Assembly (NCBI RefSeq): GCF_013372265.1
Contig: NZ_CP054051.1
Location: 310,001-374,000, forward strand
DNA length: 64,000 bases
Source of the DNA: Aliarcobacter cibarius
GTDB taxonomy: Bacteria; Campylobacterota; Campylobacteria; Campylobacterales; Arcobacteraceae
Reading direction: 5' to 3'
A program made the translations under genes and the position numbers. Of the stretch, positions 7,901 to 54,379 are shown piece after piece (within the stretch, counting starts at the first letter, position 1; the number at the start of each line of letters is the position of its first letter). The notes beneath the pieces are model-generated. The model had not been told where the DNA came from. It did not search any database and worked only from the letters and a program-made list of their open reading frames with translations.

Positions 7901-10900
7901 TCGATGTTTGCACCTTGTGTTGTATGCTTTAGTGTATTGTCACCTAAAGTATAAGACCAACTATATGCACCATTTGTATTAGTAACTGTTAATAAACCAT
8001 ATGTACCTTGTACTGTTCCACCATTTGTTACATCTGTTGTTCCAACGAATACTTGTGAAACTGAATCATTTCCTGTTGTAATTGTAAATGTTCCTGTTGT
8101 TGTCTCAGCTGTACTTAAAGGAGTAGAACCATCTGATAATGCAGCCTCATCAACTGCTCCAGAAGTTGTTGTAATTGTTGGAGTTGAATCTGCTGCTAAT
8201 GTAACATTTACTGTTGCTGTATCTATATCTCCATCTTTATCTGTAACTGTGTAAGTAAAGCTATCTGTTCCTTCTTGACCTGCTGTTGGAGTATATGTGA
8301 ATGTTCCATCATTATTGTATACAACTGTTCCGTTTGTTGGTTGTGTAGAAACATAAACTTTTGTAGTATCTGTCCAATCTACACCATCTGCACCAGCTGT
8401 TACATCTCCTTTTATATCTACTGTTACTGCTGTATCTTCTGCTGGTGTTAATGCATTTGTATGATCAACTGCTGTTACAACATCATCTTTAATAGTAACA
8501 GTTAATGTATCTGCTGCTGATGTATCTCCATCTGAATCTTTTACAGTTACACTAAACGTATCTTCGATTCCATCGATGTTTGCACCTTGTGTTGTATGCT
8601 TTAGTGTATTGTCACCTAAAGTATAAGACCAACTATATGCACCATTTGTATTAGTAACTGTTAATAAACCATATGTACCTTGTACTGTTCCACCATTTGT
8701 TACATCTGTTGTTCCAACGAATACTTGTGAAACTGAATCATTTCCTGTTGTAATTGTAAATGTTCCTGTTGTTGTCTCAGCTGTACTTAAAGGAGTAGAA
8801 CCATCTGATAATGCAGCCTCATCAACTGCTCCAGAAGTTGTTGTAATTGTTGGAGTTGAATCTGCTGCTAATGTAACATTTACTGTTGCTGTATCTATAT
8901 CTCCATCTTTATCTGTAACTGTGTAAGTAAAGCTATCTGTTCCTTCTTGACCTGCTGTTGGAGTATATGTGAATGTTCCATCATTATTGTATACAACTGT
9001 TCCGTTTGTTGGTTGTGTAGAAACATAAACTTTTGTAGTATCTGTCCAATCTACACCATCTGCACCAGCTGTTACATCTCCTTTTATATCTACTGTTACT
9101 GCTGTATCTTCTGCTGGTGTTAATGCATTTGTATGATCAACTGCTGTTACAACATCATCTTTAATAGTAACAGTTAATGTATCTGCTGCTGATGTATCTC
9201 CATCTGAATCTTTTACAGTTACACTAAACGTATCTTCGATTCCATCGATGTTTGCACCTTGTGTTGTATGCTTTAGTGTATTGTCACCTAAAGTATAAGA
9301 CCAACTATATGCACCATTTGTATTAGTAACTGTTAATAAACCATATGTACCTTGTACTGTTCCACCATTTGTTACATCTGTTGTTCCAACGAATACTTGT
9401 GAAACTGAATCATTTCCTGTTGTAATTGTAAATGTTCCTGTTGTTGTCTCAGCTGTACTTAAAGGAGTAGAACCATCTGATAATGCAGCCTCATCAACTG
9501 CTCCAGAAGTTGTTGTAATTGTTGGAGTTGAATCTGCTGCTAATGTAACATTTACTGTTGCTGTATCTATATCTCCATCTTTATCTGTAACTGTGTAAGT
9601 AAAGCTATCTGTTCCTTCTTGACCTGCTGTTGGAGTATATGTGAATGTTCCATCATTATTGTATACAACTGTTCCGTTTGTTGGTTGTGTAGAAACATAA
9701 ACTTTTGTAGTATCTGTCCAATCTACACCATCTGCACCAGCTGTTACATCTCCTTTTATATCTACTGTTACTGCTGTATCTTCTGCTGGTGTTAATGCAT
9801 TTGTATGATCAACTGCTGTTACAACATCATCTTTAATAGTAACAGTTAATGTATCTGCTGCTGATGTATCTCCATCTGAATCTTTTACAGTTACACTAAA
9901 CGTATCTTCGATTCCATCGATGTTTGCACCTTGTGTTGTATGCTTTAGTGTATTGTCACCTAAAGTATAAGACCAACTATATGCACCATTTGTATTAGTA
10001 ACTGTTAATAAACCATATGTACCTTGTACTGTTCCACCATTTGTTACATCTGTTGTTCCAACGAATACTTGTGAAACTGAATCATTTCCTGTTGTAATTG
10101 TAAATGTTCCTGTTGTTGTCTCAGCTGTACTTAAAGGAGTAGAACCATCTGATAATGCAGCCTCATCAACTGCTCCAGAAGTTGTTGTAATTGTTGGAGT
10201 TGAATCTGCTGCTAATGTAACATTTACTGTTGCTGTATCTATATCTCCATCTTTATCTGTAACTGTGTAAGTAAAGCTATCTGTTCCTTCTTGACCTGCT
10301 GTTGGAGTATATGTGAATGTTCCATCATTATTGTATACAACTGTTCCGTTTGTTGGTTGTGTAGAAACATAAACTTTTGTAGTATCTGTCCAATCTACAC
10401 CATCTGCACCAGCTGTTACATCTCCTTTTATATCTACTGTTACTGCTGTATCTTCTGCTGGTGTTAATGCATTTGTATGATCAACTGCTGTTACAACATC
10501 ATCTTTAATAGTAACAGTTAATGTATCTGCTGCTGATGTATCTCCATCTGAATCTTTTACAGTTACACTAAACGTATCTTCGATTCCATCGATGTTTGCA
10601 CCTTGTGTTGTATGCTTTAGTGTATTGTCACCTAAAGTATAAGACCAACTATATGCACCATTTGTATTAGTAACTGTTAATAAACCATATGTACCTTGTA
10701 CTGTTCCACCATTTGTTACATCTGTTGTTCCAACGAATACTTGTGAAACTGAATCATTTCCTGTTGTAATTGTAAATGTTCCTGTTGTTGTCTCAGCTGT
10801 ACTTAAAGGAGTAGAACCATCTGATAATGCAGCCTCATCAACTGCTCCAGAAGTTGTTGTAATTGTTGGAGTTGAATCTGCTGCTAATGTAACATTTACT

Positions 10901-13900
10901 GTTGCTGTATCTATATCTCCATCTTTATCTGTAACTGTGTAAGTAAAGCTATCTGTTCCTTCTTGACCTGCTGTTGGAGTATATGTGAATGTTCCATCAT
11001 TATTGTATACAACTGTTCCGTTTGTTGGTTGTGTAGAAACATAAACTTTTGTAGTATCTGTCCAATCTACACCATCTGCACCAGCTGTTACATCTCCTTT
11101 TATATCTACTGTTACTGCTGTATCTTCTGCTGGTGTTAATGCATTTGTATGATCAACTGCTGTTACAACATCATCTTTAATAGTAACAGTTAATGTATCT
11201 GCTGCTGATGTATCTCCATCTGAATCTTTTACAGTTACACTAAACGTATCTTCGATTCCATCGATGTTTGCACCTTGTGTTGTATGCTTTAGTGTATTGT
11301 CACCTAAAGTATAAGACCAACTATATGCACCATTTGTATTAGTAACTGTTAATAAACCATATGTACCTTGTACTGTTCCACCATTTGTTACATCTGTTGT
11401 TCCAACGAATACTTGTGAAACTGAATCATTTCCTGTTGTAATTGTAAATGTTCCTGTTGTTGTCTCAGCTGTACTTAAAGGAGTAGAACCATCTGATAAT
11501 GCAGCCTCATCAACTGCTCCAGAAGTTGTTGTAATTGTTGGAGTTGAATCTGCTGCTAATGTAACATTTACTGTTGCTGTATCTATATCTCCATCTTTAT
11601 CTGTAACTGTGTAAGTAAAGCTATCTGTTCCTTCTTGACCTGCTGTTGGAGTATATGTGAATGTTCCATCATTATTGTATACAACTGTTCCGTTTGTTGG
11701 TTGTGTAGAAACATAAACTTTTGTAGTATCTGTCCAATCTACACCATCTGCACCAGCTGTTACATCTCCTTTTATATCTACTGTTACTGCTGTATCTTCT
11801 GCTGGTGTTAATGCATTTGTATGATCAACTGCTGTTACAACATCATCTTTAATAGTAACAGTTAATGTATCTGCTGCTGATGTATCTCCATCTGAATCTT
11901 TTACAGTTACACTAAACGTATCTTCGATTCCATCGATGTTTGCACCTTGTGTTGTATGCTTTAGTGTATTGTCACCTAAAGTATAAGACCAACTATATGC
12001 ACCATTTGTATTAGTAACTGTTAATAAACCATATGTACCTTGTACTGTTCCACCATTTGTTACATCTGTTGTTCCAACGAATACTTGTGAAACTGAATCA
12101 TTTCCTGTTGTAATTGTAAATGTTCCTGTTGTTGTCTCAGCTGTACTTAAAGGAGTAGAACCATCTGATAATGCAGCCTCATCAACTGCTCCAGAAGTTG
12201 TTGTAATTGTTGGAGTTGAATCTGCTGCTAATGTAACATTTACTGTTGCTGTATCTATATCTCCATCTTTATCTGTAACTGTGTAAGTAAAGCTATCTGT
12301 TCCTTCTTGACCTGCTGTTGGAGTATATGTGAATGTTCCATCATTATTGTATACAACTGTTCCGTTTGTTGGTTGTGTAGAAACATAAACTTTTGTAGTA
12401 TCTGTCCAATCTACACCATCTGCACCAGCTGTTACATCTCCTTTTATATCTACTGTTACTGCTGTATCTTCTGCTGGTGTTAATGCATTTGTATGATCAA
12501 CTGCTGTTACAACATCATCTTTAATAGTAACAGTTAATGTATCTGCTGCTGATGTATCTCCATCTGAATCTTTTACAGTTACACTAAACGTATCTTCGAT
12601 TCCATCGATGTTTGCACCTTGTGTTGTATGCTTTAGTGTATTGTCACCTAAAGTATAAGACCAACTATATGCACCATTTGTATTAGTAACTGTTAATAAA
12701 CCATATGTACCTTGTACTGTTCCACCATTTGTTACATCTGTTGTTCCAACGAATACTTGTGAAACTGAATCATTTCCTGTTGTAATTGTAAATGTTCCTG
12801 TTGTTGTCTCAGCTGTACTTAAAGGAGTAGAACCATCTGATAATGCAGCCTCATCAACTGCTCCAGAAGTTGTTGTAATTGTTGGAGTTGAATCTGCTGC
12901 TAATGTAACATTTACTGTTGCTGTATCTATATCTCCATCTTTATCTGTAACTGTGTAAGTAAAGCTATCTGTTCCTTCTTGACCTGCTGTTGGAGTATAT
13001 GTGAATGTTCCATCATTATTGTATACAACTGTTCCGTTTGTTGGTTGTGTAGAAACATAAACTTTTGTAGTATCTGTCCAATCTACACCATCTGCACCAG
13101 CTGTTACATCTCCTTTTATATCTACTGTTACTGCTGTATCTTCTGCTGGTGTTAATGCATTTGTATGATCAACTGCTGTTACAACATCATCTTTAATAGT
13201 AACAGTTAATGTATCTGCTGCTGATGTATCTCCATCTGAATCTTTTACAGTTACACTAAACGTATCTTCGATTCCATCGATGTTTGCACCTTGTGTTGTA
13301 TGCTTTAGTGTATTGTCACCTAAAGTATAAGACCAACTATATGCACCATTTGTATTAGTAACTGTTAATAAACCATATGTACCTTGTACTGTTCCACCAT
13401 TTGTTACATCTGTTGTTCCAACGAATACTTGTGAAACTGAATCATTTCCTGTTGTAATTGTAAATGTTCCTGTTGTTGTCTCAGCTGTACTTAAAGGAGT
13501 AGAACCATCTGATAATGCAGCCTCATCAACTGCTCCAGAAGTTGTTGTAATTGTTGGAGTTGAATCTGCTGCTAATGTAACATTTACTGTTGCTGTATCT
13601 ATATCTCCATCTTTATCTGTAACTGTGTAAGTAAAGCTATCTGTTCCTTCTTGACCTGCTGTTGGAGTATATGTGAATGTTCCATCATTATTGTATACAA
13701 CTGTTCCGTTTGTTGGTTGTGTAGAAACATAAACTTTTGTAGTATCTGTCCAATCTACACCATCTGCACCAGCTGTTACATCTCCTTTTATATCTACTGT
13801 TACTGCTGTATCTTCTGCTGGTGTTAATGCATTTGTATGATCAACTGCTGTTGGCAGAGCATCATTCACAACAATATCAAACGTACCAGTAGCTGTATCT

Positions 13901-14820
13901 CCATCAACATCTGTTACAACATAATTCACAGAAAAATTTATATTATCTTCAGTTGTGCCATCAGGATGATTTATTGCAGCTATTTGGTTAACATCATAAG
14001 TATATGTTCCTCCAACATTATTTAATGTAATAGTTATAACAGGTACACCATTTTGAATAACAGTCATTATATTACCAGTTACACTTGATGTAAATCCAAA
14101 AGAAGAATCAGCTGTAATACTACTTAAAATAACACTACCTGCTCCATTTTGACCAAAATTAACAGATAGAGGATTTCCAATACTATCAATACTTAAAGTA
14201 TCATCATCTAATGAAACATTCGGATTTATACCAGTTGTAGGAACATCATCTATAGGTAATACTTCCTCTTCAACTAGAAGTGGTCTATTATCAACAACTT
14301 CATCTATAGTAGTTGTTGTTATAACAGTATCTCTTAAATCAGTAACAATATTTGTTTCACCTGCTGTTCTATCTTCAAGTCTTACAGGAATAAGCCCAAT
14401 AGCTTCTGTTCCTTGATCACCACCTGCTGCAGGAGCTTCTTGATTAATTTGACTTTCGATTTGTTCTGGTGTTAATGTTGCTTCTGCTGTTTGTACAGGA
14501 TTTTCTTCTTGTACTCCATTATCACTTTGAGATAATAAATCAGCAACTGTTTTATCTTCAACTACTGTATCCTCTATTAGTTCTCCTGCTAATAAAGTAA
14601 TATCAAATAATTGCTCACTATTTCCAAGAATTTGTATTTCTTGAGAATTATCAGAAAGAGCTACTTTGATTGAGTTAGAATTACTATTTGATGAACTTCC
14701 AATTATTACATCACCTTCTTTAAGAATATCTCCTACTTTAGCAATTACAACCGTTCCATCTGGATGTTTAATAAAAAATGATCCATCTTTAGATGTTATT
14801 GTACCTATTGTGTTAGCCAT
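1945..14820 (-). CDS. Giant VCBS-repeat adhesin with retention module, vWA domain and RTX-like C-terminus
   Basis: The 4,291-residue protein starts at an ATG with an AAAGGAGAG ribosome site. Residues 1-80 resemble the retention module of LapA/BapA-type adhesins, which holds the N-terminus in the outer-membrane secretion channel. A Pro/Glu-rich linker and one VCBS-like domain follow. Residues about 324-3,235 are 13 units of 224 residues, each with a cadherin-like part (TPAEDTAV ... YTVTDKDGD) and a VCBS part (VDEAALSDG ... DSDGDTSAADTLTVTIKDD). Near residue 3,605 a von Willebrand A domain has the MIDAS motif DLSGS. Near 4,130-4,170 GAGDDTI and GGAGND resemble calcium-binding RTX nonapeptides, followed by a probable type I secretion signal. 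The family works in surface attachment and biofilm. No type I secretion genes are in the window. The absence of frameshifts over 12.9 kb suggests the gene is maintained. Confidence 0.93.
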   Translation of the reverse strand: MANTIGTITSKDGSFFIKHPDGTVVIAKVGDILKEGDVIIGSSSNSNSNSIKVALSDNSQEIQILGNSEQLFDITLLAGELIEDTVVEDKTVADLLSQSDNGVQEENPVQTAEATLTPEQIESQINQEAPAAGGDQGTEAIGLIPVRLEDRTAGETNIVTDLRDTVITTTTIDEVVDNRPLLVEEEVLPIDDVPTTGINPNVSLDDDTLSIDSIGNPLSVNFGQNGAGSVILSSITADSSFGFTSSVTGNIMTVIQNGVPVITITLNNVGGTYTYDVNQIAAINHPDGTTEDNINFSVNYVVTDVDGDTATGTFDIVVNDALPTAVDHTNALTPAEDTAVTVDIKGDVTAGADGVDWTDTTKVYVSTQPTNGTVVYNNDGTFTYTPTAGQEGTDSFTYTVTDKDGDIDTATVNVTLAADSTPTITTTSGAVDEAALSDGSTPLSTAETTTGTFTITTGNDSVSQVFVGTTDVTNGGTVQGTYGLLTVTNTNGAYSWSYTLGDNTLKHTTQGANIDGIEDTFSVTVKDSDGDTSAADTLTVTIKDDVVTAVDHTNALTPAEDTAVTVDIKGDVTAGADGVDWTDTTKVYVSTQPTNGTVVYNNDGTFTYTPTAGQEGTDSFTYTVTDKDGDIDTATVNVTLAADSTPTITTTSGAVDEAALSDGSTPLSTAETTTGTFTITTGNDSVSQVFVGTTDVTNGGTVQGTYGLLTVTNTNGAYSWSYTLGDNTLKHTTQGANIDGIEDTFSVTVKDSDGDTSAADTLTVTIKDDVVTAVDHTNALTPAEDTAVTVDIKGDVTAGADGVDWTDTTKVYVSTQPTNGTVVYNNDGTFTYTPTAGQEGTDSFTYTVTDKDGDIDTATVNVTLAADSTPTITTTSGAVDEAALSDGSTPLSTAETTTGTFTITTGNDSVSQVFVGTTDVTNGGTVQGTYGLLTVTNTNGAYSWSYTLGDNTLKHTTQGANIDGIEDTFSVTVKDSDGDTSAADTLTVTIKDDVVTAVDHTNALTPAEDTAVTVDIKGDVTAGADGVDWTDTTKVYVSTQPTNGTVVYNNDGTFTYTPTAGQEGTDSFTYTVTDKDGDIDTATVNVTLAADSTPTITTTSGAVDEAALSDGSTPLSTAETTTGTFTITTGNDSVSQVFVGTTDVTNGGTVQGTYGLLTVTNTNGAYSWSYTLGDNTLKHTTQGANIDGIEDTFSVTVKDSDGDTSAADTLTVTIKDDVVTAVDHTNALTPAEDTAVTVDIKGDVTAGADGVDWTDTTKVYVSTQPTNGTVVYNNDGTFTYTPTAGQEGTDSFTYTVTDKDGDIDTATVNVTLAADSTPTITTTSGAVDEAALSDGSTPLSTAETTTGTFTITTGNDSVSQVFVGTTDVTNGGTVQGTYGLLTVTNTNGAYSWSYTLGDNTLKHTTQGANIDGIEDTFSVTVKDSDGDTSAADTLTVTIKDDVVTAVDHTNALTPAEDTAVTVDIKGDVTAGADGVDWTDTTKVYVSTQPTNGTVVYNNDGTFTYTPTAGQEGTDSFTYTVTDKDGDIDTATVNVTLAADSTPTITTTSGAVDEAALSDGSTPLSTAETTTGTFTITTGNDSVSQVFVGTTDVTNGGTVQGTYGLLTVTNTNGAYSWSYTLGDNTLKHTTQGANIDGIEDTFSVTVKDSDGDTSAADTLTVTIKDDVVTAVDHTNALTPAEDTAVTVDIKGDVTAGADGVDWTDTTKVYVSTQPTNGTVVYNNDGTFTYTPTAGQEGTDSFTYTVTDKDGDIDTATVNVTLAADSTPTITTTSGAVDEAALSDGSTPLSTAETTTGTFTITTGNDSVSQVFVGTTDVTNGGTVQGTYGLLTVTNTNGAYSWSYTLGDNTLKHTTQGANIDGIEDTFSVTVKDSDGDTSAADTLTVTIKDDVVTAVDHTNALTPAEDTAVTVDIKGDVTAGADGVDWTDTTKVYVSTQPTNGTVVYNNDGTFTYTPTAGQEGTDSFTYTVTDKDGDIDTATVNVTLAADSTPTITTTSGAVDEAALSDGSTPLSTAETTTGTFTITTGNDSVSQVFVGTTDVTNGGTVQGTYGLLTVTNTNGAYSWSYTLGDNTLKHTTQGANIDGIEDTFSVTVKDSDGDTSAADTLTVTIKDDVVTAVDHTNALTPAEDTAVTVDIKGDVTAGADGVDWTDTTKVYVSTQPTNGTVVYNNDGTFTYTPTAGQEGTDSFTYTVTDKDGDIDTATVNVTLAADSTPTITTTSGAVDEAALSDGSTPLSTAETTTGTFTITTGNDSVSQVFVGTTDVTNGGTVQGTYGLLTVTNTNGAYSWSYTLGDNTLKHTTQGANIDGIEDTFSVTVKDSDGDTSAADTLTVTIKDDVVTAVDHTNALTPAEDTAVTVDIKGDVTAGADGVDWTDTTKVYVSTQPTNGTVVYNNDGTFTYTPTAGQEGTDSFTYTVTDKDGDIDTATVNVTLAADSTPTITTTSGAVDEAALSDGSTPLSTAETTTGTFTITTGNDSVSQVFVGTTDVTNGGTVQGTYGLLTVTNTNGAYSWSYTLGDNTLKHTTQGANIDGIEDTFSVTVKDSDGDTSAADTLTVTIKDDVVTAVDHTNALTPAEDTAVTVDIKGDVTAGADGVDWTDTTKVYVSTQPTNGTVVYNNDGTFTYTPTAGQEGTDSFTYTVTDKDGDIDTATVNVTLAADSTPTITTTSGAVDEAALSDGSTPLSTAETTTGTFTITTGNDSVSQVFVGTTDVTNGGTVQGTYGLLTVTNTNGAYSWSYTLGDNTLKHTTQGANIDGIEDTFSVTVKDSDGDTSAADTLTVTIKDDVVTAVDHTNALTPAEDTAVTVDIKGDVTAGADGVDWTDTTKVYVSTQPTNGTVVYNNDGTFTYTPTAGQEGTDSFTYTVTDKDGDIDTATVNVTLAADSTPTITTTSGAVDEAALSDGSTPLSTAETTTGTFTITTGNDSVSQVFVGTTDVTNGGTVQGTYGLLTVTNTNGAYSWSYTLGDNTLKHTTQGANIDGIEDTFSVTVKDSDGDTSAADTLTVTIKDDVVTAVDHTNALTPAEDTAVTVDIKGDVTAGADGVDWTDTTKVYVSTQPTNGTVVYNNDGTFTYTPTAGQEGTDSFTYTVTDKDGDIDTATVNVTLAADSTPTITTTSGAVDEAALSDGSTPLSTAETTTGTFTITTGNDSVSQVFVGTTDVTNGGTVQGTYGLLTVTNTNGAYSWSYTLGDNTLKHTTQGANIDGIEDTFSVTVKDSDGDTSAADTLTVTIKDDVPTVNFTDAINNTTTPTIAIGTWSETIGADNNSMTLGADVELNWVKVNNVLIPTTTFTFDNSSNTGSGTFVYNGTTYNFDLTLNDNGTYKVVAASLPQTVEISYNEFSSSIKASGPTDTYIVEYQDAVTKDIYSAKIYAEVEGNSLTLVNYVNSTTTNIISSTTVGSTINVSGTGIGLSNNLLESYYKNGVYTSESLYFNPDNETNLITLNFTGTGENSFNTGDVIYIELTGVDGTTKQTILLDSVHGDFIVNSDKSLTPISNTYTGGNLSSYSVSLSNGEAIDYVRVTTGFNGTNTTSVKVAFSYSVSETVIFNEDLSMNFTATITDADNDQNSTDFDVQFNKVDLIPESTDKVFDMTLGDTRETVNVVITLDLSGSMDDDINDTKRLALAKDAIKNMLNAYADNYIVNVKLVTFSDSGTSYDWILNDVNSAIATVNSLNTGNSTNYEAGVSATYSNYTEPTADKTVAYFISDGAPTSENNEGRDVWFNVGTDSESGWLDTSYKTAWNTFVDTYVDELNVIAVNSGRFSTTYLDALASAEQGNTTIVITDEYQLSNILVNLASEQISGNAYSTISGGNGVISIDAIEVNGTTYNASDYTSSNNTVTINNWNGTLTFNFSNGAYTYVTSADKFIQDLEKSFKVFASDEDGDTTSFDVKINVDIDDTASTPTLDMNISDVEVVSTLNPIPVATYENTTIADGNTYSKVISLGSAYANKTVTVSFDARSNSRWEGDDTFRVYNGTVNSNNLVKSYNDDFNVDNYTFTVVLNSNGEATINFVSGSTADAETVSLSDFKVLSSVESYHYTIALDAGLTDNGETLSDITLDNLPVGVTIDGLTANVDGSYTIDINSSGDATVTLISSTQLDLSSLNSITASVTSKDGTDSSTITVNKDFIVSIEAGAGDDTIDYNGTEKLIDGGAGNDVLKLMNGDDIDFSNLDNSIIKNIEKIDLSSDTSANLLTKLTLSDVMDMTPQEAGITHVDTGIKSTDHILKITAGSNDMVNLIDKGLVDNTSDNWVKSNNTFTDTDNTVYNVFTSNEDSSYKVLIQNTIETTITNS
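5115..13850 (-). repeat. 13 tandem copies of a 672-bp coding repeat
   Basis: The same landmark sequence recurs every 672 bases at 5121, 5793, 6465 and so on to 13185, giving 13 copies (8,736 bases). The copies read as identical by eye over the lines compared, including silent positions. 672 is divisible by three, so copy-number change by recombination would keep the frame. Each unit encodes one cadherin-like and one VCBS domain (224 residues). Confidence 0.95.
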
Positions 14821-25757: not shown

Positions 25758-26843
25758 CTAAATTCTTTGCGTCTCGACATGTTGATGATAAAGTTGTTGC
25801 AATGCCTGATTCCTTACTTTATGCAGCTAATGTTTATAAAAGAGATGTAGAACTTTTTTACATGGGTGTTATAGATGGTTCTGATCCTTATGGTGATATT
25901 ATAAAAGCAGGTCCTGTTAAAAATTTTACATCTGCACCAACTGTAGTTCCAGATGTAAAACGTAGATCATTAACTAAACTAGAGTGGACAAAAGAGTTTT
26001 TTAATACAACAAGTGAGCCTAAAGGGCATGGATTTAATTTAGTTTCTAAAGATAAACCAGTAGATTTTGGTTGTTATAGTTTCATGCCTAAATCAAATAT
26101 TCCTATAAAAATTATCTGTTTAGATAATACACAAAGAGAAGATGACAATGATCCAAGTATTCACGGAAGAGGATTCTTAGATGAAGATAGATGGAATTGG
26201 TTAAAAAAAGAGCTTGCAGATGGTACTAAAAATGATCAACTTATGATTATAGCATGGCACATTCCAATAGAAGTTATGCCATACAAAGAGTATAACAATG
26301 ATAAAGATACATATATGGATTGGTATGAGAATACTCGAGGAGGAACAATTGAAAATGCAGTAACATTAAAAGGATTAATAGATGAACTTCACAGCCATCC
26401 AAATTTTTTAATGTGGAGGCAGGACATAGACACGTAAATACTGTAAAAGCTTTTGTTGATGATAAGCCAGAAAGAGGTTTTTGGCATGTTGAGACATCCT
26501 CATTGCATGATTTTCCTATACAAATGCGTATGTTTGATATTAATTTAAATAGTGATTATTCAATTTCTATAGATGCAATAAATGTCTCACCAGCTGTAAA
26601 AGAAGGAACACCTGCATATAAAGGATTCAAATATGCAGTTGCTGCTCAACAATTACAAAAATGGATCTAAATCCAAAATTAAATTTGGCTGATCCAAAAT
26701 ATGATGTAGATGGAATTGACCCAACTATTAGACCTATTGATGAAAGTATTGCCTCTTATAATGCCAAACTTTTGAAAAAACTAACACCAAAACTAACACC
26801 AAAAATGAAAGCAAAAATGAAAAAATTGTTTCCTTCTATTTAA
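25757..26843 (+). pseudogene. 5'-truncated, frameshifted metallophosphoesterase gene
   Basis: Three adjoining frames together give the C-terminal part of a large metallophosphoesterase that resembles the TIGR03768 group. The first frame (to 26437) contains ICLDNTQ and the metal-binding-like IIAWHIPIE. The frame then shifts at about 26,415, where LMW should run into AGHRHVNTVKAF (the conserved GHxH motif). The second frame stops at 26670, and the tail (MDLNPKLNL ... ASYNAKLLKKLTPK) lies in a third frame from 26661. The N-terminal half with the first metal motifs is missing where the IS21 remnant abuts. Two frameshifts plus truncation make it non-functional. Confidence 0.78.
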
Positions 26844-26873
26844 TATTAACTTACAATCTTTATTGGAATTAAA

Positions 26874-26906
26874 CTTGCTCCGGCTTTTTTTAGTCGGAGT
26901 TTTAAT
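26874..26906 (+). terminator. Probable terminator after the metallophosphoesterase remnant
   Basis: CTCCG and CGGAG pair across a T-rich loop, followed by TTTTAATA. The GC-rich short stem stands out in this AT-rich region. Confidence 0.5.
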
Positions 26907-27007
26907 AAAATAAGTCTATTCCATATATTAAACAATATTATGCAACTAAGTTGCATTTAAAACTTATTTGCTAGTATTTCAAAACAGAAAATTAAATAAG
27001 AGAAAAT

Positions 27008-27277
27008 ATGGAAAATATAAAAATAAAATTAAAAGATGTTATTCAAACCGTGATGATTCCTGAATCACAAGAATTTATAAAAGAACTAAAAGAAGTTTTA
27101 AAAAAAGAGGAACAAATTGAAAATGATATAAATGCACTTGTAGACATGAAATCATTCATAATTGAACTTCAAGATATAATAAGTGCTATTGATAAGAATT
27201 TACTATCAGATGCTGAAGCTGAAGAAATTTACAATAAAATAAATCACATGTTAGAAGAACATGAAGATGAACACTAA
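27008..27277 (+). CDS. Small acidic hypothetical protein
   Basis: This 89-residue, highly charged, mostly helical protein has no signal peptide or membrane segment. The ATG follows a weak AAGAGA site. No family is recognised. It stands alone between the broken metallophosphoesterase gene and the minus-strand outer-membrane protein gene. The regular spacing of hydrophobic residues (KELKEVLKKEEQIENDI) suggests a helical hairpin or coiled coil. Reality of the gene is likely but not proven. Confidence 0.5.
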   Translation: MENIKIKLKDVIQTVMIPESQEFIKELKEVLKKEEQIENDINALVDMKSFIIELQDIISAIDKNLLSDAEAEEIYNKINHMLEEHEDEH

Positions 27278-37005: not shown

Positions 37006-37019
37006 TCGTTATGTAACGA
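37006..37019. promoter_or_regulatory. parS/operator-like palindrome, copy 1
   Basis: TCGTTATGTAACGA is a 14-base near-palindrome, 109 bases before parA. A close copy lies at 37101-37114 and a third at 42475-42488. Repeated palindromes beside parAB are typical of ParB-binding centromere sites or of partition-operon operators. Confidence 0.65.
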
Positions 37020-37100: not shown

Positions 37101-37114
37101 TCGTTATATAACGA
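37101..37114. promoter_or_regulatory. parS/operator-like palindrome, copy 2, next to parA start
   Basis: TCGTTATATAACGA is a perfect 14-base palindrome ending 13 bases before the parA ATG, almost at its ribosome site. A bound protein there would affect parA expression directly. Confidence 0.7.
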
Positions 37115-37127
37115 ATAAAGGAAAAAA

Positions 37128-38042
37128 ATGGAAAAAAATCTTGGTGAAGTTATAGGTGTTACAGTTCAAAAAGGTGGTGTTGGTAAATCAACTTTTTCAC
37201 AAGCATTAGCATACTCTTATGCAAATAAAGGTTATAAAACAGCATTAATAGATTTAGATCCTCAAGCAACTCTTTCAGGCGCATTTTTTGGATATTCTTA
37301 TGGTGCATTTACATATACTGAAGAAAATGGTGTAATTAAATATGATGTAAGTAATATAACAAATGTTTTTAGAAATGAAAATGTAAGCCCTATTTCTATT
37401 AAAACTACTAAATATATTGATAATCCTAATAAAGGTAAAATGTTACAACCACATTATCTTGAGGATACAATTGAAATTGACTTTTTCCCATCAAATTTTC
37501 AACTATTAAACTTAACAGAATCAGATGATTTTAAAAGAGATGAAAAGATAACTATATTATCAAATTTTATAAATAATTTAAAATCTAAATATGATAAAAT
37601 TATTATTGATGCCCCACCTTCTTTTGGAATAATTACAACTGCAATATTAAAATGTGCAAAATCTATTTTAATACCTATTCCAACTAAAAATGTTGATACT
37701 GATGGAATGGTTGGTTTTTTTAGAACCTTAGATAAAATTTTTATATCTGAAAATTTAAATAATCTAGAAAAAATTGTTTTAGTTCCTAATATGTTTGATA
37801 AAAGAATTAGTGATGCAAAAGAAACTCTTGCAGAAATTAAAAGAATACCTACCCTACTTCATGAAACTCAAAATCTTAGAAATATAAAATGTAAAGTTAT
37901 GAATCCATTTCCACAAAAATCTTGTGTTCAAGAAGCTCCTAGCTTAAAATATTTTTTAGTTCCATATATAATGGACTTTCAAAGATCACAAAATCAAGAT
38001 TTAATTTTAATGATTGATAACATAGCTGATGAATTAAATTAA
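37128..38042 (+). CDS. parA: Plasmid partition ATPase ParA
   Basis: The 304-residue protein has a deviant Walker A box KGGVGKST at residues 15-22, ALIDLDPQATLS after it, and IIIDAPPSFG as the Walker B region. This is a ParA/Soj-type ATPase that moves plasmid or chromosome copies apart with ParB. There is no N-terminal helix-turn-helix, so it is the short (type Ib-like or chromosomal-like) form. The ATG follows AAAGGA. parB follows after 12 bases. A palindrome lies just before the gene and probably takes part in control or partition. Confidence 0.93.
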   Translation: MEKNLGEVIGVTVQKGGVGKSTFSQALAYSYANKGYKTALIDLDPQATLSGAFFGYSYGAFTYTEENGVIKYDVSNITNVFRNENVSPISIKTTKYIDNPNKGKMLQPHYLEDTIEIDFFPSNFQLLNLTESDDFKRDEKITILSNFINNLKSKYDKIIIDAPPSFGIITTAILKCAKSILIPIPTKNVDTDGMVGFFRTLDKIFISENLNNLEKIVLVPNMFDKRISDAKETLAEIKRIPTLLHETQNLRNIKCKVMNPFPQKSCVQEAPSLKYFLVPYIMDFQRSQNQDLILMIDNIADELN

Positions 38043-38054
38043 GGATATAACAAT

Positions 38055-39071
38055 ATGGCAAAAGTTAAACCTCAAAGAATCACTTCTATAAATAACACTA
38101 TAGACGAGTTAAAAGCTGAGCAAGAAATTGTACTAAAAAATAATACAACTGTTACTCTAGTTGATATAGATCTAATACATGAACTAAAATTAGAAAATGA
38201 TATATTGATGCACAATCGTATTTCTTATTCAAAATCTAAATTACTTGAACTAGCTGAAAATATATCAAAACTAGCAAAAGAAGGCACAGGTATTTTAGGA
38301 ACAGGTCTACTAAATCCTGTTATGTTAAGAAAAAAAGATGGTAAATTAGAGAGAATCCATGGTGAAAACAGAATTCGAGCTTTGAAATTAAATGGTTCAA
38401 AACAAGTGCCTGCAATTATTTTGGAGAATGTAAGTGATGAACTTGCAAGATTTATGAGATCTAGTGAAAATTTAAATAGAGAAGATTTAAATACTTATGA
38501 TGAAACATTATCTATTTTAGAACATATTCAACTGGCATGTAACTTTAAAGATATTGAAAGTGTTAAAAGTTTTTTAAATAAAGTTAAAAACTTTCAAGCT
38601 GGAAAAAGTAGTTTAAATGAAGAGGAAAAGATTCTACATAAAAATGTTAGTGATGTTTTTGAAAAAATAGGGCGATTTGATATTATTACATTTGTTGATA
38701 GATTATCTGTCTTAAAATTAGATCCTTTAATTAAACAAGCTTTAATAGATGAACAAATAACTTACAGTCAAGCTAAAGTATTAAAATCTAAATTAAAAAA
38801 TCCTAATGAAATAACAAAAATTTTAGAATTATTGAAAAATAAAAAATTATCTGTAAATGAGTTAAAAATTTATATAGATAATTTAAAAAAATCGACAACT
38901 AAAGATGAACCTGTAAATAAAAATATTTTTGATAAAGTTAATTATTACTCTAAAAGATTATCTAAAAAAGTTTATTCTTCATTATCCCAAGAAGATAAAT
39001 TATTTATAGATTTAAAATTAAAAGAGATAGAAAAAATTTATTTAACTATTAATTCAAAAATAGAAAAATAA
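38055..39071 (+). CDS. parB: ParB-like partition DNA-binding protein
   Basis: The 338-residue protein has a ParB/sulfiredoxin-type N-terminal domain with RIHGENRIRALKLNG, the counterpart of the GERRxRA box that binds CTP in characterised ParBs. RSSENLNREDLNTYDE follows, then a helix-turn-helix region with ITYSQAKVLKSKLK. It should bind the centromere and stimulate ParA. The start has an AAGGA site and the gene is cotranscribed with parA. The likely targets are the TCGTTATATAACGA palindromes before parA and at the rep/dnaB junction. Confidence 0.9.
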   Translation: MAKVKPQRITSINNTIDELKAEQEIVLKNNTTVTLVDIDLIHELKLENDILMHNRISYSKSKLLELAENISKLAKEGTGILGTGLLNPVMLRKKDGKLERIHGENRIRALKLNGSKQVPAIILENVSDELARFMRSSENLNREDLNTYDETLSILEHIQLACNFKDIESVKSFLNKVKNFQAGKSSLNEEEKILHKNVSDVFEKIGRFDIITFVDRLSVLKLDPLIKQALIDEQITYSQAKVLKSKLKNPNEITKILELLKNKKLSVNELKIYIDNLKKSTTKDEPVNKNIFDKVNYYSKRLSKKVYSSLSQEDKLFIDLKLKEIEKIYLTINSKIEK

Positions 39072-39159: not shown

Positions 39160-40930
39160 ATTAGAAGCTATTTACTTACATATAATATGTGAATTTCATC
39201 ATCTCAAATGAGATGTTATAGCATATGAATAGAGAATATCTACATCTCAAATCATATGCTAATAGGCATATATAACATATAAAATGAGAAAATATAAAGT
39301 TAAATAAGATCAATAATTTTATAAAACGAATATAGTATCAGCTTATAAACTAGGGAATAGGGGGCATTTAATCAGAATAAATAGTTTATAAATAGATATA
39401 ACATATAAAATGAGAAGTTTTAGACTTATCATTAAATATGAGAGAATTAAAACAATTTTTCTCAAATTGTATGTTAATAGGCAGTCTTTAGCATATAAAA
39501 TGAGAAATGTAAATATGATGGAAGTAATAAATTTTAATAGGTAATCGTAATAATGGAATTACTTATAAATACTGAAATATTCAACTAACATATAATTTGA
39601 GAAATAAGATAAAAAAACTCTCAATGAATTGATAATATTCTCAAATCATATGCTAATAGGCATATATAACATATAAAATGAGAAAATATAAAGTTAAATA
39701 AGATCAATAATTTTATAAAACGAATATAGTATCAGCTTATAAACTAGGGAATAGGGGGCATTTAATCAGAATAAATAGTTTATAAATAGATATAACATAT
39801 AAAATGAGAAGTTTTAGACTTATCATTAAATATGAGAGAATTAAAACAATTTTTCTCAAATTGTATGTTAATAGGCAGTCTTTAGCATATAAAATGAGAA
39901 ATGTAAATATGATGGAAGTAATAAATTTTAATAGGTAATCGTAATAATGGAATTACTTATAAATACTGAAATATTCAACTAACATATAATTTGAGAAATA
40001 AGATAAAAAAACTCTCAATGAATTGATAATATTCTCAAATCATATGCTAATAGGCATATATAACATATAAAATGAGAAAATATAAAGTTAAATAAGATCA
40101 ATAATTTTATAAAACGAATATAGTATCAGCTTATAAACTAGGGAATAGGGGGCATTTAATCAGAATAAATAGTTTATAAATAGATATAACATATAAAATG
40201 AGAAGTTTTAGACTTATCATTAAATATGAGAGAATTAAAACAATTTTTCTCAAATTGTATGTTAATAGGCAGTCTTTAGCATATAAAATGAGAAATGTAA
40301 ATATGATGGAAGTAATAAATTTTAATAGGTAATCGTAATAATGGAATTACTTATAAATACTGAAATATTCAACTAACATATAATTTGAGAAATAAGATAA
40401 AAAAACTCTCAATGAATTGATAATATTCTCAAATCATATGCTAATAGGCATATATAACATATAAAATGAGAAAATATAAAGTTAAATAAGATCAATAATT
40501 TTATAAAACGAATATAGTATCAGCTTATAAACTAGGGAATAGGGGGCATTTAATCAGAATAAATAGTTTATAAATAGATATAACATATAAAATGAGAAGT
40601 TTTAGACTTATCATTAAATATGAGAGAATTAAAACAATTTTTCTCAAATTGTATGTTAATAGGCAGTCTTTAGCATATAAAATGAGAAATGTAAATATGA
40701 TGGAAGTAATAAATTTTAATAGGTAATCGTAATAATGGAATTACTTATAAATACTGAAATATTCAACTAACATATAATTTGAGAAATAAGATAAAAAAAC
40801 TCTCAATGAATTGATAATATTCTCAAATCATATGCTAATAGGCATATATAACATATAAAATGAGAAGAAAAACTATAAAAACTAATTTTTTGAGAAAAAT
40901 ATCTATCCTTTAGCATATTTTTTGAGAAAT
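39160..40930. other. Iteron-containing replication origin (oriV)
   Basis: This 1.8-kb gene-free region between parB and rep is packed with copies of one motif of about 18 bases, TA(A/G)CATATAAAATGAGAA, in both orientations. Within the first repeat unit direct copies lie at 39273-39290, 39399-39416, 39489-39506 and 39586-39603; inverted copies lie at about 39245-39265 and 39459-39480. Flanking variants occur near 39220 and at about 40910-40928, just before rep. Iterons next to a Rep_3-type initiator are the hallmark of theta-replicating plasmids; Rep binds them to open the origin and control copy number. Confidence 0.85.
39245..40866. repeat. Four tandem copies of a 394-bp unit carrying iterons
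   Basis: The landmark AATAGG near the start of each unit recurs at 39261, 39655, 40049, 40443 and 40837, exactly 394 bases apart. There are four full copies plus a 46-base partial fifth. They read as identical by eye. Each unit holds six iterons (four in one direction, two in the other) and the phrase AGGGAATAGGGGGCATTTAA is avoided elsewhere. Amplification of a whole iteron block is unusual compared with simple iteron arrays. Confidence 0.93.
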
Positions 40931-40980
40931 TTAAGAAAGATTTGATAATATACAATAACATTTTAAGAAAAAGAGACGAT

Positions 40981-42492
40981 ATGAAAAAAGATGTTTTAAT
41001 GACAAAGCAACAACTATTAGCGGAAGAGCAAAAAAAACTGTTTAAAAATAGAAAAGTTGTTCAACTTAATAAATTTATAAAAGGTGATGTCTCTCCCTTT
41101 ACAGTAAATGATTTAAAAATATTCAAGCTTATCATATCAAAAGTAGATAGTAAAGATTCTCTTTTTCAAGATTTTTATGAAATAACAACTGATGAAATTA
41201 GACATCTCAACATTAACGAAAAGCATTTATACAGTGAAACAAAAAAATCTTTAAAAAGATTAGCTAATATTTATATTACTTTTGAAGAAGAAAACTCTTT
41301 TAGAGAAGTAGGGCTTATTAGAAATGATTTTAAATTTGATAAGTATTCAAAGAAGATATTAATTAATTTTAATGATGATATGAGTGAATACTTAATAAAT
41401 TTAAAGAAAAATTTCTTCATGTACGATTTAATAGATATTGTTAATTTTAAATATAAACATACTTTAAAACTTTATGAATATTTTAAATCAAATTCTTTAA
41501 ATGTAATCAAACTAAAAGTAGAGACAATTAAAGAGATATTGGATTTAAAAAATAAGTATATTAGATATACTAACTTTAAAAAAGATGTAATTGAAGTAAT
41601 TATTGATGAAATTAATACTAGTTCAAATACTCTTTATTTGAAATACTCTGAAGAAAAAATTGGACCAAAAGTTGAATATATTATATTTCATGTAACTAGA
41701 ATAAATAGTGATGTTTTATTAGAAGGTTCAATTAGTGAAAGTAGACCATATTCATACTTATATGAAAAAGAGTGTAAATATTTAGGAAAATATTATACAG
41801 TGCAAAGTGTTACTTTAGAAGATAATCTAATAGTATTAAAAGAGCAACATTCAAATAATCAAACAAATATAGTTTGTGAAAATAGAGATAAATTAGAAGA
41901 ACAACTTAAAAAACTATTTCCTAATGATTTTGTTCAAGATAGTAAAGATACAGAATTAGATGAAATTGAAAGATTAAGTGCAATAAAAGATTTTAGAGCC
42001 TTTAAATCAAAAGTTGTTGAGAAATTTAGAGGTAAAGAAATTGGTAATAATATGCCAGGATTTGATGAAGATACAATATTCAAAATAGATGAAGATAGTG
42101 GTTATTTATTTAATACTGAAACTGGAAAAATTATTACTAAAGAAGAAAGTTTAGTAATTTGGAAATATCTATACAACAATAAAGATAAAGTAGGGCAAGT
42201 ACAAATAATAAAACCAGAGTTTATTAATAATATAGAACAGTTTATTAATAAAATTATATATATTACAAAAAACGACTCTTTTGGAAACAAAGAGAGTATA
42301 AAATATGTTGTAACGGATATAAAAGAAGAGTTAGATAGCAAAGGTATAACAAAATACAGATTACATATAAATAATCTAGAGGATCCAACTCAAGATGTTG
42401 AGAAATCAAAATCACTTTTAACATTTGAGCAAATTAAGTTATTTATTGAAGAAAATAGCGTTGAAAAAAATTACTCGTCATATAACGAATAA
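40981..42492 (+). CDS. rep: Plasmid replication initiator, Rep_3 (RepB) family
   Basis: From the ATG at 40981 the protein has 503 residues. A TTG at 40942 would add 13. Residues 20-240 fit the two winged-helix domains of Rep_3 initiators: FTVNDLKIFKLIISKV near the start, then KYKHTLKLYEYFKS and the second domain with LKVETIKEILDLKNKYIRYTNFKKDVIE, the conserved helix-turn-helix block. About 250 extra residues follow with no recognised fold. It should bind the iterons upstream and recruit the helicase encoded next to it. The last codons (NYSSYNE) contain a copy of the parAB palindrome. dnaB-like gene follows after 14 bases. Confidence 0.88.
   Translation: MKKDVLMTKQQLLAEEQKKLFKNRKVVQLNKFIKGDVSPFTVNDLKIFKLIISKVDSKDSLFQDFYEITTDEIRHLNINEKHLYSETKKSLKRLANIYITFEEENSFREVGLIRNDFKFDKYSKKILINFNDDMSEYLINLKKNFFMYDLIDIVNFKYKHTLKLYEYFKSNSLNVIKLKVETIKEILDLKNKYIRYTNFKKDVIEVIIDEINTSSNTLYLKYSEEKIGPKVEYIIFHVTRINSDVLLEGSISESRPYSYLYEKECKYLGKYYTVQSVTLEDNLIVLKEQHSNNQTNIVCENRDKLEEQLKKLFPNDFVQDSKDTELDEIERLSAIKDFRAFKSKVVEKFRGKEIGNNMPGFDEDTIFKIDEDSGYLFNTETGKIITKEESLVIWKYLYNNKDKVGQVQIIKPEFINNIEQFINKIIYITKNDSFGNKESIKYVVTDIKEELDSKGITKYRLHINNLEDPTQDVEKSKSLLTFEQIKLFIEENSVEKNYSSYNE
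42475..42488. promoter_or_regulatory. parS/operator-like palindrome, copy 3, in the end of rep
   Basis: TCGTCATATAACGA matches the two sites before parA with one base changed. The flanks also agree (TTAC before, ATAA after), so similarity extends over about 20 bases. It is inside the last codons of rep, 19 bases before the dnaB-like start. Confidence 0.65.
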
Positions 42493-42506: not shown

Positions 42507-43832
42507 TTGGATTTTACAAATATACTAAATATTGAAAGATTGATTTTAAGTTCAATTATTTTTGACTATGAACAGATTTTTGAAGTTTCATTAATTTTAA
42601 AAAAAGATGATTTTTATTTAAAAGCACATCAAGACATATATGAGGTCATGTTAAATCTACAGGAAGAGGGTTTACCAATTGATGAGGAGTTTATTAGAAA
42701 TAGAATTTCAAGAGAGAATTTCAATGAAAATATTTTATTAGATATAGTAAGCTCAAAACCAATTACAGAACCACAAGCTTATGCTTTGGAGCTTAAAGAG
42801 AGTTCTAAATTAAGAAAATTAGAGTATCTTTCTAAAAATATTATAGTTAATATAAGTAATGAAAAAAATAGTCAAGATATTATTACTAATATTCATATTA
42901 ATATAGAAAATATTGAAAATGAAACTTTACAAAAGATTCCTTCAATAAAAGATACGATTAAAGAGATCAAAGAAGATATGAAAAAAGCTTCACTAAATGG
43001 ATCTAAAATTTTGGGACAAAGCAGTGGATTAGATGCTTTAGATAATATTATTGGTGCTTTTGAAGATGGAGATTTAATTGTAATTGCAGCAAGACCTTCT
43101 ATGGGTAAAACAAGTATTATTTCAACAATAGCAACACAAGCTTTAAAAGATAAAAATGGTGTATTAATAGAATCTTTAGAAATGCCTAGAAAAAAAATTG
43201 TAAGTAGATTAATTGCATCAAAATCTGGAGAAAGTTTAACTGATTTAAAAAAAGGATTAATTAGAAATATTGATAACTTTAATGAAGCAGTTGATTTTTA
43301 CGAAAATTCTGAATTAATTATACATGATAAAGCATATCCAACAATTTTAGAACTCCAAAATAGAATAAAAGTAACTTTAAGAAAAAATCCTAATATAAAA
43401 AATGTATTTATTGATCATACAGGTAAAATTCAACTATTAGGAAAAACTAGGGAAGATATAGAAATAGGTCATATTAGTGCAATGTTAAAGAAAATTGCAA
43501 GAGATTATAACATTAGAGTTTTTTTACTTCAACAATTAAATAGATCATTAGAGTCACGAGAAAATAAAAGACCTATGTTAAGTGATTTAAAAAATTCTGG
43601 AAACATTGAGGAAGATGCAGATATTGTTTTAGGTTTATACAGAGATGCTTATTATAAAAAAGAAAAAAATAAACCAAGCATGTTTAGTCAAGGCAATATA
43701 GAGGATGCAGAGATATTAATTTTGAAAAATAGAGATGGTAGAGTAGGTACGGCTAAAGTTTCTTTTGAAGGAAAATCTGCAAGATTTCTCAATAAAGTAG
43801 AAAATGAACCTACAATTATTGAGTTTGAATAG
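42507..43832 (+). CDS. Plasmid-type replicative helicase, DnaB family
   Basis: The 441-residue protein has a DnaB N-terminal domain (ILNIERLILSSIIF, AHQDIYEVMLNL) and the RecA-like C-terminal domain. Walker A is ARPSMGKTS near residue 200, Walker B is NVFIDHTGKIQLL, with FLLQQLNRSLE and LSDLKNSGNIEEDADIVLGLYRD after it. It is a hexameric 5'-3' helicase. It starts at TTG with a good AGGGGA site. Its position right after rep suggests it serves the plasmid origin, in addition to a chromosomal dnaB expected elsewhere. Confidence 0.9.
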   Translation: MDFTNILNIERLILSSIIFDYEQIFEVSLILKKDDFYLKAHQDIYEVMLNLQEEGLPIDEEFIRNRISRENFNENILLDIVSSKPITEPQAYALELKESSKLRKLEYLSKNIIVNISNEKNSQDIITNIHINIENIENETLQKIPSIKDTIKEIKEDMKKASLNGSKILGQSSGLDALDNIIGAFEDGDLIVIAARPSMGKTSIISTIATQALKDKNGVLIESLEMPRKKIVSRLIASKSGESLTDLKKGLIRNIDNFNEAVDFYENSELIIHDKAYPTILELQNRIKVTLRKNPNIKNVFIDHTGKIQLLGKTREDIEIGHISAMLKKIARDYNIRVFLLQQLNRSLESRENKRPMLSDLKNSGNIEEDADIVLGLYRDAYYKKEKNKPSMFSQGNIEDAEILILKNRDGRVGTAKVSFEGKSARFLNKVENEPTIIEFE

Positions 43833-48494: not shown

Positions 48495-48723
48495 AAATTC
48501 TTAAAAGTAAAATATTAAATAAAAAATTATTAATTCGAAGTTATGATATATAGATTGAAATACAAAAGATTATTTATTAAGCACTGACATTGAAACGATT
48601 GTGAATTGAATGATTTTATGTTGCTACTTTGTAAATAAATTATGAAGTTTAATTTAAAATTATTATTTAAGAGTGTAAAATCCAAAATTTCCAAAATTTA
48701 AGCGACATTTAAGCGTATAGCTC
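48495..48723. other. Intergenic, no gene seen
   Basis: AT-rich sequence between the restriction-enzyme remnant and the rRNA promoter. No open frame of note, no hairpin with T tract. An A/T-rich stretch directly before the -35 box may act as an UP element. Confidence 0.5.
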
Positions 48724-48752
48724 TTGACAACTGAGAAAAATCCTATTATAAT
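48724..48752 (+). promoter_or_regulatory. rRNA operon promoter
   Basis: TTGACA (48724-48729) and TATAAT (48747-48752) are both perfect consensus boxes at the ideal 17-base spacing, about 240 bases before 16S. This is the strongest promoter in the window. A GATCTTTAAAAA-type leader sequence follows. Confidence 0.9.
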
Positions 48753-48991
48753 TCCCGTCCAATTTGACCGAGAGAGGTTAAGTTAAGATCTTTAAAAAAT
48801 GAAGTAAGTTTGTAAAGATAATAATCTTTGTAAACCGAATATGTTAATCTTAAATATTCAATACAAAAAAATAATGAACAAGAAGTCAAATTCTTGTCTA
48901 TAAATTTGAGTGATAATTTTGTAATTTAGTAATAAAAAACAAAAATGTCAGTTTCATACACTACATAATGATTAATTAGATTAATCAATAA

Positions 48992-50509
<1,518 letters not shown>

Positions 50510-50612
50510 CAGAGAAATAAGTTAAGATTTGTTTCTTAACTATTCAGAAAAACAAAGAAGATTTAAGATAATATGTTCGGTTTATAAAGATTATTTGAAA
50601 AAATAGGTGAAG

Positions 50613-50689
50613 GGGCCTATAGCTCAGCTGGCTAGAGCGCTCGACTGATAATCGTGAGGTCTCAGGTTCAAGTCCTGATAGGCCCACCA
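50613..50689 (+). tRNA. tRNA-Ile (GAT)
   Basis: The acceptor arms GGGCCTA and TAGGCCC pair, the D-loop has AGCTCAGCTGG, the anticodon loop is CTGATAA (GAT) and the T arm has GGTTCAAGTCC. CCA is encoded. 77 bases, in the usual 16S-23S spacer. Confidence 0.97.
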
Positions 50690-50699
50690 TAAATAATCT

Positions 50700-50775
50700 G
50701 GGGAATTAGCTCAGCTGGGAGAGCGCCTGCTTTGCACGCAGGAGGTCAGCGGTTCGATCCCGCTATTCTCCACCA
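50700..50775 (+). tRNA. tRNA-Ala (TGC)
   Basis: The acceptor arms are GGGGAAT/ATTCTCC, the anticodon loop reads TTTGCAC (TGC), and the T arm has GGTTCGATCCC, with CCA encoded. 76 bases, ten bases after tRNA-Ile, as in many bacterial rRNA operons. Confidence 0.97.
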
Positions 50776-51147
50776 TCTATTAAACTTAAGAGTGTAAGAG
50801 CTTTTAAAGTTTTAATATAAGTTTTATAATATGATTATAAGATTTATATTAGAACTTAAAAAAATAGGTTTCTAAATGATATTTAAAAATATAATGTTAA
50901 AGTCTTTAAAATTTTTTCGTAAATTTGAATAGCGATATTTGAATTTAAATAAAAAAATTTCATATCTAAAAAATTTAATAGAGATATTAAATATAACTAT
51001 AGATAACACAACTATATTATTGAACAATATGTTTAATAAGATAGTAGCCAAAGAATATTATCAAATTTAGAAGTTGTAGTTTACTATAACTTTTAGGCAA
51101 GAAAAAAGGAACCTGAATAAAATCGTAAGATTTTTTTAGGCTCCGTT
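50776..51147 (+). other. tRNA-Ala to 23S spacer
   Basis: 372 bases of AT-rich transcribed spacer. No tRNA or open frame is seen. It will contain processing stems for 23S rRNA; part of the sequence just before 51,148 should pair with sequence after the 23S 3' end. Confidence 0.6.
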
Positions 51148-54060
<2,913 letters not shown>

Positions 54061-54224
54061 AACAATTTTCTTTGGTTTACTATCTTATTAAGCATATTTA
54101 TTATGTTTAATTAGTGTTTATTAATATAGATACAAATATGAAATACAAATAAAGACTTTAACATTAGATTCTCAAAATCACAATTTGAGTGTTAAGAGTT
54201 TATTCAAGCTTTTAACACTCGAAT

Positions 54225-54342
54225 TTGCTGGTGGTTAAAGAGAAGTGGAAATACCCAGCCCCATTCCGAACCTGGTAGTCAAGCACTTCATCGCCGATAA
54301 TACTGCAGGGTCCCCTTGTGGAAACGTAGGTCGCTGCCAGTT
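54225..54342 (+). rRNA. rrf: 5S ribosomal RNA
   Basis: The 5' and 3' ends TGCTGGTGG and CGCTGCCAG pair, and the internal CCCATTCCGAACCTGG is the conserved 5S loop. Length about 118 bases, after a 164-base spacer from 23S. Confidence 0.95.
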
Positions 54343-54379
54343 CATTTGAGTAATATTATGGTATAAAAGTACCAGTTCT

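Follow-up and report, generated by a model that had tools for sequence, protein, structure and literature searches.

Tandem 394-bp iteron blocks between parB and rep of a Rep_3 replicon flanked by rRNA operons in Aliarcobacter cibarius

The genome is a single contig of 2,336,659 bp, and the window, the 64-kb stretch of DNA analyzed here, corresponds to its positions 310001-374000. Coordinates are those of the window unless the genome is indicated. The genes of a plasmid-type replicon are found in the window in the order parA-parB-array-rep-dnaB. The parA gene (37128-38042, + strand) encodes a partition ATPase (PF13614/PF01656), and the product of parB (38055-39071, +) contains the ParB_N and HTH_ParB domains (PF02195 and PF17762). 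The rep gene (40981-42492, +) encodes a Rep_3 initiator of 503 residues. Its matches to the WH1 (PF01051, 1.7e-19) and WH2 (PF21205, 6.7e-13) domains are both above the cut-off, and it also has a profile match to RepE of the F plasmid (PDB 1rep, 1e-12). An initiator is thus located beside the region that the original prediction, made from the letters alone, took to be an iteron origin. The last gene encodes a plasmid-borne DnaB-like replicative helicase (42507-43832, +; PF03796/PF00772), which suggests that Rep loads its own helicase. Rep has a C-terminal extension of ~250 residues past WH1 and WH2; it is kept in relatives down to 46-48% identity (L061) and is not present in the more distant Reps of ~320 residues. 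The AlphaFold model of Rep, calculated from nine sequences, is poor (mean pLDDT 66.9, pTM 0.27). The replicon is most closely related to plasmids that exist free in Aliarcobacter and Arcobacter. The array lies in the 1909-bp spacer between parB and rep, and by its sequence it is assigned as the iteron region of a Rep_3 (PF01051) replicon that belongs to an Arcobacteraceae megaplasmid family.

The iteron is 18 bp in length (consensus TAACATATAAAATGAGAA) and is present in both orientations. A position weight matrix (PWM), built from 11 related arrays and used with a cut-off of at least 12 bits, detects 31 sites within the 1.9-kb spacer and one site in the other 62 kb of the window. The chance expectation for the 31 sites is ~0, as the shuffled spacer has 0.2 sites on average even when the cut-off is lowered to 10 bits. 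With up to two mismatches allowed, 17 of the 18 sites in the 2.34-Mb genome are located in the array, and the genome-wide search for chromosomal long-range titration sites finds none apart from one near-match. Elsewhere in the window, an open reading frame of 4291 residues (1945-14820, - strand) has internal repeats about 672 bp apart and probably encodes a giant repeat surface protein. Between 5388 and 13780, chance iteron hits in it follow the same 672-bp period.

A repeat search, with TRF included, finds a unit of 394 bp in the spacer, in 4.1 copies (39245-40866) and with 100% matches. The four full copies (block 1, 39245-39638; block 2, 39639-40032; block 3, 40033-40426; and block 4, 40427-40820) are identical to each other in a script comparison of the entire region (39245-40820), and they are followed by the first 46 bp of a fifth block (40821-40866). 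Each block contains four direct and two inverted iterons. In block 1, the direct iterons are at 39273, 39399, 39489, and 39586, and the inverted ones are at 39244 and 39459. The partial fifth block carries two iterons, at 40820 (inverted) and 40849 (direct). The parB-proximal module (39176-39236) has iterons of alternating orientation, at 39176 (+), 39197 (+), 39201 (-), and 39219 (+), the second and third of which overlap in a palindrome. On the other side of the blocks, a single rep-proximal iteron is found (40911-40928, +). Overall, the PWM assigns 24 sites to the blocks, 2 to the partial fifth copy, and 5 to the flanks. The original prediction of four identical 394-bp blocks, each with six two-way iterons, and of about 24 iterons plus flanking variants is therefore borne out; the range given there, 39160-40930, takes in the flanking iterons besides the blocks.

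Textbook iteron origins have helically phased runs of 21-22 bp repeats, DnaA boxes, and an AT-rich unwinding element. Here, multiple sites of ~18-22 bp adjoin rep, as in other Rep_3 iteron replicons, but they are spaced ~30-130 bp apart in both orientations rather than arranged as contiguous, helically phased direct iterons, the usual Rep_3 form. No obvious helically phased run of 21-22 bp repeats is seen in the spacer, and by inspection the iteron spacings in the blocks are in general not multiples of 10.5 bp. Of the 30 other Rep_3 loci sampled from Campylobacterota, many have such 21-22 bp runs. A DnaA-box origin was considered and set aside, as no exact DnaA box (TTWTNCACA) is found in the spacer. 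The GC content of the spacer is 17-27% throughout, and it does not pick out a distinct AT-rich unwinding element. The best promoter-like site before rep, TTGAGA-16-GATAAT (40922-40949), overlaps the last iteron. Autorepression of rep would be expected, because this iteron covers the -35 of the promoter-like site. The same arrangement of iteron and promoter is visible in the spacer of the related plasmid pAFAEC.

A free counterpart of the replicon is the A. cibarius plasmid pACIB (NZ_CP043858, strain H743), a circular record of 237.5 kb. The Rep, DnaB, and ParA proteins of the window and pACIB are 100% identical, and the ParB proteins differ by one residue. The array of pACIB is in the same place and has five blocks, in the order 394-268-268-394-394. 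The PWM count is 35 sites, as compared to 31 here. The 268-bp unit corresponds to the 394-bp unit minus exactly 126 bp, which lie between two identical 21-bp iteron-containing stretches. As read from these units, the blocks recombine through the iterons. Two SNPs are common to all the long blocks of pACIB and absent from all four blocks here, while the flanks of the array show no differences on the 3′ side and two on the 5′ side. The original prediction had ascribed the identity of the blocks to recent amplification or homogenization, in agreement with these replicon-specific SNPs. Because the blocks are identical within a replicon and different between replicons, the array appears to evolve in concert, for which unequal exchange or conversion at the iterons would be the simplest mechanism. 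In a separate part of pACIB, a predicted tet(L) gene (25794-27173 of locus L022, 180793-182172 of NZ_CP043858) is located between genes for a small replication protein and a mobV relaxase.

The number of blocks is unlikely to be an assembly artefact, because the independently assembled pACIB, with its five blocks in the same place, and eight other plasmids, with 4.5-5.5 copies of a block, have the same design. Draft assemblies err in the opposite direction. Short-read drafts appear to collapse such arrays, as may be the case in a metagenome-assembled (MAG) locus (L056) with a Rep 82% identical and a spacer of only 571 bp.

The same iteron is found in pACIB, pAFAEC, pACLO, pACRY43158, pCNAC48, and relatives by the motif search that the original prediction had called for, and the number of sites ranges from roughly 13 to 35 across the family. 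The eight other plasmids, from the A. cryaerophilus group and A. faecis, have a different block, of 228 bp. It is present in 4.5 copies in seven of the eight, despite block divergence of up to 26 nt. The mean difference between blocks of the same plasmid is 0-2.2 nt in six of these plasmids and 4.9 and 9.3 nt in the other two, and blocks of different plasmids differ by 3.5-26.5 nt. A block of 201 bp is repeated 3.3 times in pACLO. More distant relatives have a 364-bp block in 2.1 copies (L063) or a period of ~132 bp (L059); in another locus (L058), the site positions point to one duplication of ~726 bp. The block architecture is, by these comparisons, common to most sampled plasmids of the family for which the sequence is complete, with block sequences that differ. 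The locus L054 (Rep 82% identical) has about 15 iterons with ~100-bp spacing. The blocks therefore appear to be recurrent in the family yet not obligatory, because L054 attains a similar length without them. The spacing of the parB-proximal module (105, 130, 148, 173, and 191 nt past parB) is similar in most of the close relatives.

No comparable block is found in the 30 other Campylobacterota Rep_3 loci, a sample that includes short flanks and draft assemblies. Two tandem repeats near Rep_3 genes were rejected as candidates: one with a 126-bp unit (L103) looks like a coding repeat, and the other (69 bp, 5.6 copies; L108) has no obvious iteron. Each 394-bp block has one G-rich stretch (CTAGGGAATAGGGGGCATTTAATC, 39350-39373 in block 1), always at the same place, and the 268-bp units lack it. 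A G-run like it is found in the 228-bp block of pAFAEC, on the reverse strand.

In theory, and in a few plasmids that have been studied well, copy number and incompatibility are set by how many iterons there are and how they are arranged. We consider it very probable that the array is the replication and copy-control region of the replicon, serving as a sink for Rep and a platform for handcuffing, with blocks that recombine and with the replicon integrated at rRNA operons (see below). Rep would bind the 18-bp sites in both orientations, and at the promoter site it would limit its own synthesis. It would fill the array, and then either open the DNA near rep or couple the arrays on sister molecules. 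With so many sites, the array could be a strong Rep sink and handcuffing platform, and a large, par-equipped replicon would be kept at low copy number. Recombination between iterons would add, remove, and shorten blocks, and repeated exchange would keep the blocks uniform within a replicon while the replicons drift apart. Other iteron replicons are known to be subject to titration and to handcuffing or looping (PMC6090056, PMC13028717).

The dosage effect of the blocks on copy number is what we infer here. Alternatively, the blocks could be a neutral by-product of slippage or recombination in AT repeats, with no effect of their number on copy number. The sequence and length of the block vary by plasmid (394, 268, 228, 201, and 364 bp), L054 has none, and homogenization alone suffices to explain their identity. 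On the other hand, the blocks arise repeatedly in the same spacer, every block holds several intact iterons, and the 4.5 copies of the 228-bp block are kept in spite of its divergence. The neutral explanation is a serious possibility, though on balance we do not favor it. The stronger version of the dosage effect, that the blocks are a recurrent and selected copy-number dial, their number altered by iteron recombination, homogenized by exchange, and tuned in each lineage, is tentative and rather doubtful. With its varied site numbers and block lengths and its fresh indels ending in iterons, the family offers a natural test of how iteron dosage evolves and of how it would act on copy number.

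The right boundary of the integrated replicon is an rRNA operon detected with Rfam (rrn2; 48701-54360, + strand, genome 358701-364360). Another operon (rrn1; genome 49917-55566) is a direct repeat of rrn2, and rrn2 is 99.9% identical to both rrn1 and the rrn of pACIB. Between rrn1 and rrn2 is a segment of ~303 kb that holds the replicon and, in addition, several stretches matching pACIB, collinear or rearranged. pACIB itself has one rrn, with hipA upstream, as at rrn2, and the flank of rrn1 downstream, as expected of an excised circle. In A. faecis, the YccA-like gene and the flagellin flanks enclose one rrn and nothing else, with no island ends, and the homologous plasmid is free. There are six rrn operons here, as compared to five in three relatives with a separate plasmid, none of them plasmid-borne. 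The operon of pACIB is in itself a plasmid-borne rRNA operon that could serve as a chromosomal integration site; the three related plasmids have none. The direct rrn copies on both sides, the relative whose empty site has just one rrn, and the free form, pACIB, all indicate that the replicon has been inserted into the chromosome, with an rRNA operon in direct orientation at either end; the original prediction had raised integration only as a condition. In the simplest account, an rrn on the plasmid would have recombined with one on the chromosome in a single crossover.

The integrated state is read from one assembly, joined through 5.65-kb repeats. The plasmid and the chromosome could instead have been misjoined through the identical rrn operons, and the replicon would then really be a free plasmid of ~300 kb. 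The junctions coincide exactly with the 5.65-kb repeats, and the same replicon occurs free as pACIB. However, the genome is one contig, and real homologous recombination predicts the rrn-flanked topology equally. We regard a misjoin as unlikely, but it deserves some weight. If the 303-kb segment is treated as circular, the minimum of its detrended cumulative GC skew is at genome position 346,904, 2.3 kb off the array, in favor of initiation in this region. The corresponding minimum is ~3.7 kb from the array in pACRY43158; against this reading, it is 34 kb away in the IS-rich pACIB. The dnaA gene is at genome position ~300; provided that oriC is close to it, the plasmid origin and oriC are about 350 kb apart. 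As one replicon exists both free and fused at rrn, the activity of a plasmid origin after fusion could be followed here.

The original prediction also proposed that, if the plasmid is integrated, an excess of iterons may silence its origin. Surplus iterons can inhibit iteron origins by titration and handcuffing (PMC6090056, PMC13028717), and a fused ori2 of Vibrio cholerae can be silent (PMC6284228). This part of the prediction is not supported, because the autonomous pACIB has more iterons (35 as compared to 31), with identical Rep and DnaB. Of the V. cholerae fusions, one has a second origin that fires; in another, NSCV2, the second origin is silent, which is attributed to the position of crtS rather than to iteron number (PMC6284228). 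Silencing by iteron overdose is therefore improbable.

Rep is probably the ligand of the iterons, in both orientations. In eight Arcobacteraceae loci, made up of the window and seven relatives with Rep identity down to 37-42%, the motif TGAGAA/TTCTCA occurs 4-14 times per kb 5′ of rep, as compared to 0.4-1.6 times per kb in other places. In the same loci the TGAGAA half of the site is kept and the other half changes by lineage. The motif is not clearly enriched in three loci that are more distant still (L065-L067). The array stays with rep rather than traveling with parAB: the sites are 5′ of rep also in L063 and L064, where parAB is 3′ of dnaB, and in L061, where no par is detected on the 7.5-kb contig.

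The better candidates for ParB sites are two parS-like palindromes 5′ of parA, TCGTTATGTAACGA (37006-37019) and TCGTTATATAACGA (37101-37114), which are apart from the iterons. No other match to TCGTTNNNNAACGA occurs in the window, the array included, and 0 would be expected by chance; most members of the family have such a pair 5′ of parA. Judged by sequence, the TCGTTNNNNAACGA palindromes are likelier ParB sites than the iterons. Several relatives have an extra copy of TCGTTNNNNAACGA close to the 3′ end of rep, and L063 has two palindromes of the TTCCGTTCCAGAACGGAAA type, a different parS-like site, between dnaB and parA (7779-8060). The array does adjoin parB, its parB-proximal module holds a 16-bp palindrome (CATCTCAAATGAGATG), and in D. 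radiodurans 18-bp repeats 5′ of parAB bind DnaA and ParB, the repeats beside parAB in the secondary replicons of Deinococcus being proposed as the centromere (PMC7671480). Nevertheless, with a separate palindrome pair before parA, L063 included, with sites that remain at rep where par is elsewhere or undetected, and with the last iteron inside the rep promoter, ParB is unlikely to be the main ligand, and a parS centromere in place of Rep iterons is highly improbable.

The replicon, with Rep as the likely ligand of its array, can be compared with several known systems. RepE and oriS-incC of the F plasmid are similar in having a Rep_3 initiator with WH1 and WH2, iterons 5′ of rep, and an operator in the rep promoter. 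The second iteron set of F, incC, is a locus of copy control and incompatibility; it consists of five iterons, and oriS of four (PMC13028717), as compared to about 31 sites here. In contrast to F, the sites here are two-way, lie far apart, and are grouped in 394-bp blocks that follow one another in tandem on one side of rep. The Rep is ~500 residues with its long C-terminal extension, and the replicon has its own plasmid DnaB and no exact DnaA box in the spacer. The ori2 of V. cholerae (RctB; ori2-min and ori2-inc) likewise has many initiator sites of varied roles beside the initiator gene, with titration, handcuffing, and par nearby (PMC6090056), and natural fusions place it in chromosome 1 (PMC6284228). 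However, its initiator is of an unrelated family, its sites are distinct 12-, 29-, and 39-mers without homogenized higher-order blocks, and it is Dam-dependent.

Among Rep_3 replicons, plasmids carrying rrn have been described (Anda et al. 2023, PMC10645730), with the initiator and the rrn on one replicon as here. Arcobacter is absent from the main text of that paper, and no description of these block arrays was found in the open-licence literature. In contrast to those plasmids, the chromosome here retains its own rrn, and the shared rrn would be the site of crossover. The closest similarity is to pACIB, pAFAEC, pACLO, pACRY43158, and pCNAC48, in gene order, iteron, and block-amplified spacer. 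The Rep identity is 63-82% (100% for pACIB). These plasmids are free and have a lineage-specific block length and sequence, whereas the replicon here appears to be integrated. As judged from these comparisons, it belongs to a known class, the Rep_3 iteron replicons, and has an unusual anatomy, with widely spaced, two-way sites in homogenized higher-order blocks.
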